DNA from: Halopiger aswanensis
Lineage (GTDB): Archaea; Halobacteriota; Halobacteria; Halobacteriales; Natrialbaceae
Assembly (NCBI RefSeq): GCF_003610195.1
Contig: NZ_RAPO01000001.1
Span: 248,001-312,000 of the forward strand
Direction of reading: 5' to 3'
DNA: 64,000 nt
The first letter of the stretch is position 1; each line of letters opens with the position of its first letter. The notes beneath the pieces are model-generated. The model made no database searches and was not told where the DNA came from. It worked only from the letters and a program-made list of their open reading frames with translations. The position numbers and the translations under genes are program-made. Shown here in pieces: positions 2,946-17,721 of the stretch.

Positions 2946-3638
2946 TTACAGCGATAGCCACTCGGTCCGCGTCCGTTGCTCGCGGAGTCGCCACCGCTGT
3001 TCGTAGCTTCCCGCTCGCTCCCGGAGTTCGACGACCGCATCGAACAGCGGCTCGAGCAGCGCGACGGTCTCGTGGGTCCGGGCGAGCGGCAGGTGCACGT
3101 GGCCCATTCCGTTAACGTGTTCGATCGCAGCGGTCGTCATGTGCAGGAGGCGAAACACGCGCTCGGCGCCGTACCTTCGGAGTAACGGCATCGGTGAGTC
3201 GATACAGACCCGCAGTTCAGCGGGGGAAAGCCCGTCCGCCGCGGCGTCGAGTTCGTCGATGGTTTCGATAATCTCGAGGCCGAGTGCCTCGAGTCGATCG
3301 CTACAGCCGGCGTATTGCGTGTCGTCGACTGACGGCTCGCCGTCGGCATCGGGTGCGTATTCGATCCATCTGACCGTTCCGTCTGGCGCGGGATCGTGCG
3401 AGGGGCGGTCCGCCCGATCCGTGACGAGAACGCGATACCGGGACCGGCCGGTCACCGACTCGTTGCCGTCGTCGTGATTACCGTCTCCACAGCCGCACAA
3501 CTGCCGGCAGGCGACTTCGTGGACTGCAGTCACGTCTTCGCCGACGACGAGGACGTTGCTCCCGTCCCGTTTGAGCGCCGGCAACGTTCGCAGGAACGCT
3601 GCACGCGTCTCTCCCCCACTCGCGTACTCACCGTCCAT
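2946..3638 (-). CDS. DUF7504-like haloarchaeal protein
   Basis: The protein of about 230 residues has the pattern of the haloarchaeal family I know as DUF7504: an N-terminal strand after a helix (LKRDGSNVLVVG), Cys-containing CRQLCGCGDG, a central variable acidic region, and a C-terminal ATPase-like shell ending in HMTTAAIEHVNGMGHVHLPL. The family resembles degenerate RecA/KaiC-type folds and is often near signalling genes; no function is established. I chose MDGEYASG as start because family members begin near there and an AT-rich TATA-like box (3664-3675) lies about 31 bp upstream. In-frame ATGs at 3719 and 3686 would add 27 or 16 residues. Confidence 0.65.
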   Translation of the reverse strand: MDGEYASGGETRAAFLRTLPALKRDGSNVLVVGEDVTAVHEVACRQLCGCGDGNHDDGNESVTGRSRYRVLVTDRADRPSHDPAPDGTVRWIEYAPDADGEPSVDDTQYAGCSDRLEALGLEIIETIDELDAAADGLSPAELRVCIDSPMPLLRRYGAERVFRLLHMTTAAIEHVNGMGHVHLPLARTHETVALLEPLFDAVVELRERAGSYEQRWRLREQRTRTEWLSL

Positions 3639-3738
3639 CCGGACTAACGGATAGCCGTCGTTGAAATAAATATTTCGGCCGTTCATCGTTTCAAAAACGT
3701 CCGGGCTGCGTAATATCATCCATTGACAATCGGCCGAC

Positions 3739-12770: not shown

Positions 12771-13589
12771 CTAGTTGAGGATGGACTGTGCCACCGTCGC
12801 GAGTTGGCCGTTATCCGCTTCCTGCAGGCGCTCGTCGCCGATCTTCAGACGCAGGCGCGGGCGGCCGACGTCGATCGGGACCTTCTCGGTGTCGATCAGG
12901 CCCATGTCTTCGAGTTTAGTCTTCGTCCGGCTGAACGTCGCTTTCGAGGCGATACCGACGTCCTCGCCCCACTTGCTGATGTCGTACAGCAGCGCTTCGT
13001 TCTTGGCGGCGACAAGCAGCGAGATCGTGACCTCGTCGAGGCCGTCCCCGTCGCCGCGGGCCGTCTCGAGCGAGTCCAAGATCGCGGTGAAGTCGGCCTC
13101 GGCCTCGGGGCTGATCTCCTCGGACAGCGTTTCGCGGACGTCCGAGATCGGCGGCGTCCGGAGGTTGTACGTCGAGGCTGCCTCCCAGCGCTCGGCGTAG
13201 GTGTCGTAGGTGTCCTCGACGAAACTCTCGTCGTCCGTGATGAGCCCGCCGACGCGGTCGCCGGCGTGGACGATCGCGACGATCCGATCCTCAGTGATGA
13301 CCAGCGAGTTCTCGGGCGCCTCCTCGAGCGTCCGCAGGGCGAGGGCGTCCTCGCTGATGAGGTCGGCCGCGTTCGAGGCGACGATGAAGTCGTCCATCAC
13401 TTCCTTCAGCGTCCGCTCGTCGGCGAGCATGTGCACCGTCGGCAACGTGCCGTCGAAACCGGTCGCAACGCCGACGAACTCCTCGATCGCATCCCGGGAC
13501 GGATTGACCATGTAAATGTCCCCACTCGCGTCCGTTAGGATGGACTCGAGGATATCGTCAATCTGGTGATTGAGTAAATTCGAGGTCAT
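12771..13589 (-). CDS. TbsP-like transcriptional regulator (DUF5821)
   Basis: 272 residues of the haloarchaeal DUF5821 family, which I associate with the regulator TbsP of sugar metabolism. The N-terminal half has an alpha/beta fold (DIYMVNPSRDAIEEFVGVAT, HMLADERTLKEVMDDFIVASNAADLI). The highly conserved C-terminal part (LDEVTISLLVAAKNEALLYDISKWGEDVGIASKATFSRTKTKLEDMGLI) is a winged helix-turn-helix. The protein ends with a charged tail (GRPRLRLKIGDERL). A TATA-like AATTAAG lies ~36 bp upstream. Three perfect hairpins follow the stop. The name TbsP is from memory. Confidence 0.75.
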   Translation of the reverse strand: MTSNLLNHQIDDILESILTDASGDIYMVNPSRDAIEEFVGVATGFDGTLPTVHMLADERTLKEVMDDFIVASNAADLISEDALALRTLEEAPENSLVITEDRIVAIVHAGDRVGGLITDDESFVEDTYDTYAERWEAASTYNLRTPPISDVRETLSEEISPEAEADFTAILDSLETARGDGDGLDEVTISLLVAAKNEALLYDISKWGEDVGIASKATFSRTKTKLEDMGLIDTEKVPIDVGRPRLRLKIGDERLQEADNGQLATVAQSILN

Positions 13590-13971: not shown

Positions 13972-16299
13972 TCATTCGAACCGAGCGCACAGTTCCCGCG
14001 ACCAGTAGACGTCGCCGTCGTAGATGACGGCGGCCTCCGTATTTTCGAGCAGGGCCGCCAGTTCCGGCGCCGAGAGAACGAAGTTCGATTCGTTGCCACA
14101 CAGCGTCGCGGCCGTGGCGTCGGCGTGTGGGACGTAGTACGACCCGGTCGTCCGCGTCGAGTAGCAGTCGAACGTCACCAGGTACCGGGGAGTATCCGCG
14201 TCACCGCTCGACCGCGGACGCGAGCGCGCGGTCGACGCTGTTCCCGCGCCCGTTCTGGACTCCGTCCGTCTCGATCGCGAGCGCGCCCGCTGGCCGTCCG
14301 TGAGCGGTTCGATCGTGATCGTCGTGGGGAACGGATTGGTTCCCTGTGCGAGCGAGTGGGTGCCGTCGCCGACGACCGCGTAGTCTTTCCCCATCATGAT
14401 CCGGCGCCTCGCGAGGCGCATGGCGCGTTCGATGCTGAAGCCGTGGACGAGGAAGGTAGCGAACGCCGAGCCGACCTTGATCGCGTGGTCGTTGAGGACC
14501 TTCGTGAACGTGACCGCGCCGGCGACGCTGCCCTTCTCGACCAGCTTCTGTCCCTCGTAGAAGGAGCCACAGGCGTTCAGGAAGAACGTCTGGGTCCGAC
14601 AGCGGTCGAGCGACGAAATCGAGAGCGATCCGTCGGGACAGCACAGGCCGCAGGTCTCGCAGTGCCCGATGTAGTGGACGAAGTCGTTTTCCGATTCGAA
14701 CAGGCGAGCGAGTTCGGCCGTCTCGAGCGATTCCTCGACGGTGACGTCCATCGAGCGCTCCTGGGCGCGGCGCCGGTAGATCGCGGCGACGTCGTCGTGT
14801 TCGCCGGCCATCTCGGGATCGTTGAGGACGACGCGGATCGACGTCGACTCGCGTTCGTCCGCTCGCTCGAGGTAGTCGAGCCGATTCCGGTAGGCTTCGG
14901 GGGCGGATTTGAAGACGTCGATCGGGACGCCCTCGGCGAGCCAGCCGTGGGTGCGGCCGTGCCGGAGTTCCGGCTTGACGATGTCGACGGAGGCGACCTG
15001 ACCGCTACTGGCCCTGGTGCGGTAGTCGGCCTCGAGTTCAGGTTTCCGACCGATTTGCGGTGGTGCGTCGAACCCGTTCCTGGTCGCAGTTACCTGCCCT
15101 TTCTCGATTCCAGTCCCGCTCCCGTCTACGGTCCCGGTCTCAGTCTCCGCAACCTCATCGCGACCGCGATAGAACTCCTCGAGCGAGCGTTCGACGAGTT
15201 CCTTCCCCTCGAGTTCGGTGGTTCGAGGCCGGTAGATCAGGCTCATTCGATCGAGCAGGAACGGCAGCGTCTCGAGGCTGTCGTAGGAGGGGCAGACGTA
15301 CGTCGCGAGGTGCCACTCGGGCAGTCGGTGTTCGATCGCCTCGTAGGGGACCTCGAGGTACGCCGCGAGGCGTTCGTCCGGCGACGCCTCGTACAGCGAC
15401 TCGCTCTCGAGGCCGAGCGCGTCGAGGACGCTGCACTCGCCGAGGGCGGTGCCGTACGGCCCCGCGTTCCGGACCAGGCAGTCCAGAAAGAACGTCTTCC
15501 GGAGCAGCCGCTCGACGTCGCTCTCGAGGGCCGGCATCGCGGGAAGGTGGCGCTCGATCCCCTGCTCGGGGAGTCGCAGCCGCGCGCCGTCGGGACAGTC
15601 CGCCCCCTCGAGCGTATCGGTGACGTGGACGGACGCCTGCAGGTAGTACGCGAGCGGCGCCGTCACGTACAGCGGCTCGTACCGGGGCGGCACGGCGAGT
15701 TCGATCCCCGTCTCGGGGAGGTCCGCGCGCAGACAGTCCGAAATCTCGAGTTCGTCGCCGGGCTCGAGCAGCGGGGGATGACCGCGAAGCGTCGGGTACG
15801 TCCGGTCGGGGCCGTCGGTCCGGTGGGCGGCGCCGAGGTGCGTAATCGCTTCGGCGATCGCCGCCGGCTCGTCCGGCACCGTCATCGAGCCGACGGGCAG
15901 TTCGTTGCGGCTCCGGAAGCCGACCGTCACCGACGTTCGCTCGGGGAAGGAGACGACGATCGACTCGAAGTCGTCGGTCTGCTCGATGATCGCCCGGCCG
16001 GTAAACTGGAGGTAGACCTTGATTTCGGCGTCGATGTCGATAACGTACTCGCCCGACGGGAGCGCGACCGGGTCGCCGTTCGGATCGAGTTCGTACCGGT
16101 CGTCGGCCTCGAGCGCGAAGGCGTAGCAGACGGCGTGTGGAAACTGGAGTTCGCTCGCGGTCACGACGACGCTCTCGTCGATCGGTCGCGGCATCTCGAC
16201 CGCGTCGTCGACGACGGAAAACTCGCCGCGGACCGCCACCGTCGCGCTGTCCACGTCGCGAGCGTAGAGCGTCTCGCGGTCCAGTTCCCACTCGATCAT
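13972..16299 (-). CDS. CHAT (caspase-like) domain protein
   Basis: A 775-residue soluble protein, no signal peptide. Residues ~1-175 look like beta-rich modules (SVTVGFRSRNELPVGSMTVPDE). Residues ~190-380 form a helical/beta region. Residues ~430-660 match the CHAT peptidase: strand-His motif VHYIGHC (H546), then strand-Cys motif FFLNACGSFYEGQ (C577) and GAVTFTKVLNDHAIKVGSAFATFLVHG. These are the positions of the catalytic His and Cys of caspase-like (clan CD) CHAT proteases. A Cys cluster (CETCGLCC, 547-554) follows the His directly. A basic linker (~690-710) leads to a 70-residue C-terminal domain. No known target or activator gene is adjacent; divergent from glyA. CHAT assignment rests on motifs only. 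Confidence 0.7.
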   Translation of the reverse strand: MIEWELDRETLYARDVDSATVAVRGEFSVVDDAVEMPRPIDESVVVTASELQFPHAVCYAFALEADDRYELDPNGDPVALPSGEYVIDIDAEIKVYLQFTGRAIIEQTDDFESIVVSFPERTSVTVGFRSRNELPVGSMTVPDEPAAIAEAITHLGAAHRTDGPDRTYPTLRGHPPLLEPGDELEISDCLRADLPETGIELAVPPRYEPLYVTAPLAYYLQASVHVTDTLEGADCPDGARLRLPEQGIERHLPAMPALESDVERLLRKTFFLDCLVRNAGPYGTALGECSVLDALGLESESLYEASPDERLAAYLEVPYEAIEHRLPEWHLATYVCPSYDSLETLPFLLDRMSLIYRPRTTELEGKELVERSLEEFYRGRDEVAETETGTVDGSGTGIEKGQVTATRNGFDAPPQIGRKPELEADYRTRASSGQVASVDIVKPELRHGRTHGWLAEGVPIDVFKSAPEAYRNRLDYLERADERESTSIRVVLNDPEMAGEHDDVAAIYRRRAQERSMDVTVEESLETAELARLFESENDFVHYIGHCETCGLCCPDGSLSISSLDRCRTQTFFLNACGSFYEGQKLVEKGSVAGAVTFTKVLNDHAIKVGSAFATFLVHGFSIERAMRLARRRIMMGKDYAVVGDGTHSLAQGTNPFPTTITIEPLTDGQRARSRSRRTESRTGAGTASTARSRPRSSGDADTPRYLVTFDCYSTRTTGSYYVPHADATAATLCGNESNFVLSAPELAALLENTEAAVIYDGDVYWSRELCARFE

Positions 16300-16473: not shown

Positions 16474-17721
16474 ATGGAACACGACCACGTTCGGGAGGTC
16501 GATCCCGACGTCGCCGACGCGCTCGAGAACGAGGTCGACCGCCAGCGGTCGACGCTGCAGATGATCGCCAGCGAGAACCACGCCAGCGAGGCCGTCATCG
16601 ACGCCCAGGGGAGCGCCCTGACGAACAAGTACGCCGAGGGCTACCCCGGCGAGCGCTACTACGGCGGCTGCGAGTTCGCCGACGACGTCGAGGAACTCGC
16701 GATCGAGCGCGCGACGGAGCTGTTCGGCGCCGAGCACGTCAACGTTCAGCCCCACGCCGGCACGCAGGCCAACCAAGCCGTCTACTTCGCGATGCTCGAG
16801 CCCGGCGATAAGATCCTGTCGCTGGATCTGAACCACGGCGGCCACCTGAGCCACGGCCACCCCGCGAACTTCACGGGCCAGCTCTACGAGGTCGAGCAGT
16901 ACGAGGTCGACCCCGAGACGGGCTACATCGACTACGAGAGCCTCGCGGAGCACGCCGCGGAATTCGACCCCGACATCATCGTCTCGGGCTACTCCGCGTA
17001 CCCCCGCGAGATCGAGTGGGAGCGCATTCAGGACGTCGCCGACGACGTCGACGCGCTCCACCTCGCGGACATCGCCCACATCACCGGCCTCGTGGCGGCG
17101 GGCGTCCACCCCTCGCCAGTTGGCGTCGCCGACTTCGTCACCGGCTCGACCCACAAGACGATCCGCGCGGGCCGCGGCGGCATCGTCATGTGCGACGAGG
17201 AGTACGCCGACGACATCGACTCGGCGGTCTTCCCCGGCGGCCAGGGCGGCCCGCTGATGCACAACATCGCCGGCAAGGCGGTCGGCTTCAAGGAAGCGCT
17301 CCAGCCCGAATTCGAGGACTACGCCGAGCAGACCGTCGCGAACGCGAAGGCCCTGGGCGAGTCGCTGTCCGAGCACGGCTTCTCGCTGGTCTCGGGCGGC
17401 ACCGACAACCACCTCGTGCTGGTCGACCTGCGCGAGAGCCACCCCGACACCTCCGGCGGCGACGCCGAGGAGGCGCTCGAGGAGGCCGGCATCGTCCTCA
17501 ACGGGAACACGGTCCCCGGCGAGACGCGCTCGCCGTTCGACCCGAGCGGCATCCGCGCCGGGACGCCGGCGCTGACGACCCGCGGCTTCGACGAGGACGA
17601 CTGCCGCAAGGTCGGCGACCTCATCGCCCGCGTGATCGACAACCTCGAGGACGAAGAGGTCATCGCCGAGGTCCGCGAGGAAGTCGAGGAACTCTGCGAA
17701 GCGAACCCGCTGTACGAGTAA
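16474..17721 (+). CDS. glyA: Serine hydroxymethyltransferase
   Basis: 415 residues, PLP-dependent fold type I. It interconverts serine and glycine while loading a one-carbon unit on the folate/pterin carrier. Motifs: MIASENHASEAVIDAQGS, KYAEGYPGERYYGGCEFADDVE, VQPHAGTQANQAVY, DLNHGGHLSHGHP, DIAHITGLVAAG and the PLP lysine in TGSTHKTIRAGRGG (K228). C-terminal FDPSGIRAGTPALTTRGF is standard. folD, encoded 2 kb downstream, uses its product; thyA and folA are at 35-37 kb. Length is normal. Confidence 0.97.
   Translation: MEHDHVREVDPDVADALENEVDRQRSTLQMIASENHASEAVIDAQGSALTNKYAEGYPGERYYGGCEFADDVEELAIERATELFGAEHVNVQPHAGTQANQAVYFAMLEPGDKILSLDLNHGGHLSHGHPANFTGQLYEVEQYEVDPETGYIDYESLAEHAAEFDPDIIVSGYSAYPREIEWERIQDVADDVDALHLADIAHITGLVAAGVHPSPVGVADFVTGSTHKTIRAGRGGIVMCDEEYADDIDSAVFPGGQGGPLMHNIAGKAVGFKEALQPEFEDYAEQTVANAKALGESLSEHGFSLVSGGTDNHLVLVDLRESHPDTSGGDAEEALEEAGIVLNGNTVPGETRSPFDPSGIRAGTPALTTRGFDEDDCRKVGDLIARVIDNLEDEEVIAEVREEVEELCEANPLYE

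Follow-up and report, generated by a model that had tools for sequence, protein, structure and literature searches.

The question raised by this locus is whether an open reading frame of a haloarchaeon, Halopiger aswanensis, encodes a working caspase-like peptidase of the CHAT type and, if it does, whether such an enzyme belongs to a defence system or to the core physiology of the cell. Most of what is known about CHAT proteases comes from bacterial defence; among eukaryotes, separase is a relative. A sequence-only reading of the window (the whole stretch of DNA that was analysed, 64,000 nucleotides) had placed a CHAT protease candidate at 13972-16299; these coordinates proved exact, with the ORF on the minus strand. 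The gene and its parts are as follows:

13972..16299 (-): gene for a CHAT-family protein (P0001) of 775 aa, stop codon included; a single ORF with full-length orthologues
15184..16299 (-): N-terminal domain, residues 1-372, beta-rich over 1-141 and then alpha/beta; AF2 pLDDT 90
14980..15183 (-): linker, residues 373-440, disordered and fast-evolving; pLDDT <50 for 373-439, conservation 0.13, dN/dS 0.49 for 381-440
14320..14979 (-): CHAT peptidase domain, residues 441-660 (start approximate), from fold, profile and a dN/dS of 0.05
14818..14820 (-): D494, candidate acid of the S1 pocket, right behind the first CHAT strand; D or E in 184/188
14662..14664 (-): H546, candidate catalytic His; 187/188, paired with the CHAT His by hhalign
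14638..14661 (-): CETCGLCC, residues 547-554; conservation is confined to C547 (clade A) and C554 (whole family)
14569..14571 (-): C577, candidate catalytic Cys in LNACGS; 187/188, aligned with CHAT LSAC
14365..14370 (-): G644-D645, GD motif at the domain end (GDP in some members); 188/188 and 184/188
13975..14199 (-): small C-terminal alpha/beta domain, residues 701-775, from the AF2 model; moderately conserved

The C-terminal domain is preceded by a stretch (residues 679-696) that is disordered in the AF2 model, and the GD motif resembles the GDP with which CHAT/C25 domains end.

Taken by itself, the Halopiger protein has no meaningful match in Pfam or NCBIfam, CHAT included, and a sequence search of the PDB with the family profile returned no match. 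The domain nevertheless belongs to the CHAT type, although it lies at the divergent margin of the Pfam family, an assignment that follows from its predicted fold, from Pfam matches in relatives and from profile-profile alignment. AlphaFold2 on an alignment of 59 sequences gave a model with a mean pLDDT of 84 and a pTM of 0.84, for which the best Foldseek match in the PDB was SAVED-CHAT (8tl0, 8.6e-7), followed by separase (5fby, 7.8e-6), gingipain (7.4e-5), caspase-4 (1.1e-3) and 7zoq (8.6e-3), an entry titled as a CRISPR effector with a caspase regulator. The fold comparison that had been proposed for residues 430-660 thus leads to SAVED-CHAT, separases, gingipains and caspases. The Pfam CHAT model (PF12770) is matched by 19 of the 59 orthologues, one of which (L067) scores 24.7 bits, above the 24-bit gathering cut-off, and two more family members, from genomes searched with the CHAT model, also exceed the cut-off (34.1 and 28.1 bits). 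When the family was aligned with four bona fide CHAT sequences, hhalign gave an alignment of 174 columns with a probability of 92% and an E value of 5.3e-7, placing HYIGHC on the HFACHG-type motif of CHAT, with GH on the catalytic H, and LNAC on LSAC. H546 (within FVHYIGHC) and C577 (within FFLNACGSF) had been recognized from their CHAT-like spacing and strand-loop context; they are 31 residues apart, and the predicted strands E538-544 and E569-575 end just ahead of them. The original call of a CHAT peptidase is backed by fold, profile, motif and conservation alike.

Orthologues lacking the His or the Cys had been named as evidence against that call, and none was seen. In an alignment of 76 orthologous proteins, H546 and C577 are both invariant, as are G545, N575 and S579, and in a larger set of 188 sequences, which includes close relatives, the two residues are kept in 187 members. 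The sole exception, L149, has lost both together, implying that they work as a pair, and their invariance indicates that the placement of the His and the Cys is not due to chance. In clade A, the CHAT core is also the most conserved part of the protein (0.82 vs. 0.62-0.67). Nei-Gojobori dN/dS, calculated between the Halopiger gene and its nearest relative among the sampled genomes (92% identical), is 0.054 for the CHAT domain, 0.135 for the N-terminal domain and 0.49 for the linker. Purifying selection acts strongly on the CHAT region, and a catalytic core that appears as the most constrained part is as expected of a working enzyme.

Based on these results, we consider it likely that the protein is a catalytically competent, latent CHAT (clan CD) cysteine peptidase that stands alone, has a housekeeping role, carries an N-terminal regulatory domain and prefers a basic residue at P1. 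Within a caspase-like core that is closed by the GD motif, C577 would attack the peptide bond, and H546 would act as the base. The N-terminal ~370 residues, tethered by the long disordered linker, most likely hold the protease latent, and the binding of a ligand or partner to this domain would release it. Among clan CD enzymes, the S1 residue is Asp163 in gingipain R and Arg in caspase (PMC4357240). By analogy, D494 appears to sit where these enzymes place their S1 residue, and since it is acidic, cleavage is predicted after Arg or Lys and not after Asp, which allows for a clear yes/no test.

It was suggested earlier that the N-terminal region resembles nothing known and may be the activating sensor. 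The former part is borne out, as a Foldseek search of the PDB with this domain gave no match below 1e-3, while the latter is plausible, given polar residues that are conserved across the family. R166, P169, R172, H174, D273, R277 and W329 are conserved family-wide, and all of these except P169 look like parts of a putative ligand site.

The proposal that CETCGLCC, which directly follows H546, forms a four-cysteine cluster for metal binding or redox sensing found no support in the comparison. C550 is a cysteine in the Halopiger protein only and C553 is one in 21/76 orthologues, so that a four-Cys metal site is rejected as a family feature. All 76 orthologues have C547, which is not kept in clade B (described below). 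C554 lies in a GhxCxDG hairpin and is shared by 188/188 aligned family members, including L149 with its lost dyad, and, by eye, in many dyad-less relatives (L201, L205, L207-L211 and L213). Because it survives where the dyad does not, C554 probably has a structural role rather than a catalytic or redox one.

The genes on either side of the CHAT gene bear on its possible role:

16474..17721 (+): glyA (serine hydroxymethyltransferase), divergent neighbour; within 1.5 kb in 71/75 orthologous loci
12771..13589 (-): TbsP-like transcription regulator (named by our own reading), downstream neighbour; syntenic in 70/75

Genes of the RNase P/psmA/SBDS type (names partly by our own reading) are also nearby, and the earlier remark that TPR, CRISPR and toxin genes are missing from the immediate surroundings holds: the neighbours are glyA, the regulator and housekeeping genes. 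The survey of gene neighbourhoods shows this synteny to be fixed in the clade that contains the Halopiger gene (clade A). In a scan of species genomes, 75 related loci were found, all of them haloarchaeal and nearly all full length, with best-segment identities of 37-66%. Counting any family member above threshold and not the clade A gene alone, and with weak best matches in a few genomes (e.g., G016 and G027), relatives occur in 101/101 genomes of the same taxonomic family and, by alignment search, in 131/145 genomes of the class. Outside the class, the protein family also occurs in four genomes of a single further family of the phylum, two of which we take to be Methanocella. As the gene stands alone in a fixed syntenic setting and nearly every genome of its taxonomic family has a relative, both the target and the trigger would probably be core cellular components rather than parts of a mobile defence module.

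Alternative to a working peptidase, the protein might be a scaffold or ligand sensor built on the CHAT fold, with the N-terminal domain doing the main work and the dyad retained just for autoprocessing as a rare event. The conserved polar positions of the N-terminal domain fit such a role, and a third, divergent set of relatives from several haloarchaea retains this domain without a recognizable dyad; these are, by their sequences, pseudoproteases, and they count against an active protease in that proteolysis is then not the selected function in part of the family. However, within the clade of the Halopiger gene it is the CHAT core, and not the N-terminal domain, that is the most conserved and most strongly selected part, and the dyad is kept in every orthologue, making a scaffold or sensor an unlikely reading here. 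It is less probable still that the protein is an anti-phage effector or cell-death executioner, triggered in the manner of Craspase or SAVED-CHAT. The nearest solved fold is that of SAVED-CHAT, and clade B relatives are found on plasmids and in several copies. By contrast, no PADLOC model matched, no relatives were found on viral contigs, and the fixed housekeeping synteny, the near-universal presence in the family and the lack of SAVED, TPR or CRISPR genes nearby all argue against defence.

A third alternative concerns Haloferax, whose extracts show strong LEVDase activity, a caspase-like activity for which the gene is not known (PMC3615174). Exactly one family copy is present in 15/15 genomes of a genus that is probably Haloferax, judging from plasmid DNA shared with named Haloferax, and the five copies examined show clade B features. 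In these copies, an in-frame TGA considered as a recoded codon turned out, from the L124 coordinates, to be the terminal stop just past the ORF end. The CHAT family offers a concrete list of candidates for the gene-less archaeal activity. However, the acidic S1 position predicts Arg or Lys at P1 rather than Asp, caspase-like sites of the proteasome are an alternative source, and the Haloferax copy belongs to clade B, a different clade from that of the Halopiger gene. Mainly owing to the predicted basic P1, we give little weight to the CHAT family as the source of the LEVDase/IETDase activity, and rate it marginally below a defence role.

The peptidase that we favor can be set beside several known systems. 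With SAVED-CHAT (8tl0) and PF12770 it shares the core fold and the HxxGH and LxAC active-site motifs, but it differs from SAVED-CHAT in lacking a SAVED domain (no Pfam match in the protein itself or in 59 orthologues) and a defence gene context, in having its own N-terminal domain without a PDB fold match, and in the invariant extra Cys eight residues past the His. TPR-CHAT (Csx29/Craspase, represented by the 7zoq match) is likewise a CHAT protease with a large N-terminal regulatory region; unlike Craspase, the Halopiger protein is encoded in chromosomal housekeeping synteny without type III CRISPR genes nearby, and no TPR family was found in Pfam scans of the 59 orthologues. Separase (C50), the second-best fold match, has a known P1 Arg, which is here predicted, although its N-terminus is of another type and there is no securin or cohesin context, so that the similarity is at the fold level only. 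Metacaspases and orthocaspases (C14) have the clan CD dyad in common with the family, for which the Peptidase_C14 profile gave no match in 59 members. An earlier survey, in whose text neither CHAT nor haloarchaea are mentioned, found metacaspases in 5/114 archaeal genomes (PMC3501461). If our reading is true, the CHAT proteases would gain a housekeeping member from archaea that is conserved, syntenic and equipped with a regulatory domain of its own, and that is testable in genetically tractable haloarchaea. This conserved, unstudied protein is a promising candidate for a fundamental proteolytic switch of archaea.

The description of the gene as an orphan is right locally but not overall, as nearly all haloarchaea carry members of the family, the Halopiger genome itself contains a paralogue, and one clade is coupled to DUF7504/HalOD1 signalling genes. 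In a tree of 124 proteins with Methanocella-type sequences as outgroup, clade A (n=68, support 0.6) holds the Halopiger gene and clade B (n=52) has a support of 0.998. Clade B relatives on RefSeq plasmids, annotated as 'CHAT domain-containing' or 'caspase family protein', share the two-domain architecture, the dyad and C554; unlike the Halopiger protein, they lack C547, are mobile and multi-copy, and often stand right behind DUF7504 (with or without HalOD1). DUF7504 lies directly upstream on the same strand in 19/50 clade B loci, fused to HalOD1 in some, and is nearby in seven more, with such pairs on haloarchaeal chromosomes and plasmids (L116, L119, L122-L128, L133, L141, L143 and others). 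As a local partner of the clade A gene it was rejected, since none occurs in the flanks of the 75 orthologous loci. A literature search found no paper mentioning DUF7504. HalOD1 proteins have been described as components of haloarchaeal signalling, and the KaiC-like domains of some of them are inactivated (PMC5847659).

Four DUF7504 genes in the Halopiger genome are over the cut-off, and one of them stands alone in the window at 2946-3719 (-) (PF24336, 1e-48), ~10 kb from the CHAT gene. Since many CHAT genes of clade B have DUF7504 as their operon partner, this one could act in trans with the CHAT protein. More speculatively, and with a likelihood as low as that of a scaffold or sensor, the syntenic core protease, the copies paired with DUF7504/HalOD1 (KaiC-like) and pseudoprotease regulators or sensors might together form an archaeal caspase-style network underlying stress responses.

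Several further arrangements were observed. In a clade B subgroup (L132, L140, L153, L183 and L186), a conserved upstream gene of ~250 aa has no Pfam match; a divergent DUF7504 was rejected (hhalign probability 0.2%), and by eye the product may be metallo-beta-lactamase-like. In the pseudo-CHAT proteins (L200-L213), which occur at times as tandem pairs (L209, L210), the N-terminal domain of the family is joined to a remnant of the CHAT domain without the His and Cys. The paralogue in the Halopiger genome (L079:5534-7603) follows glpABC and an AAA gene of the Cdc6-like type, and four other loci share this arrangement wholly or partly; the clade B paralogue with an upstream AAA/Cdc6-lid gene beside glpABC is seen at L079:5534-13394, L165, L166, L167 and L169. 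At L163:4072-11306, three clade B copies stand in tandem.
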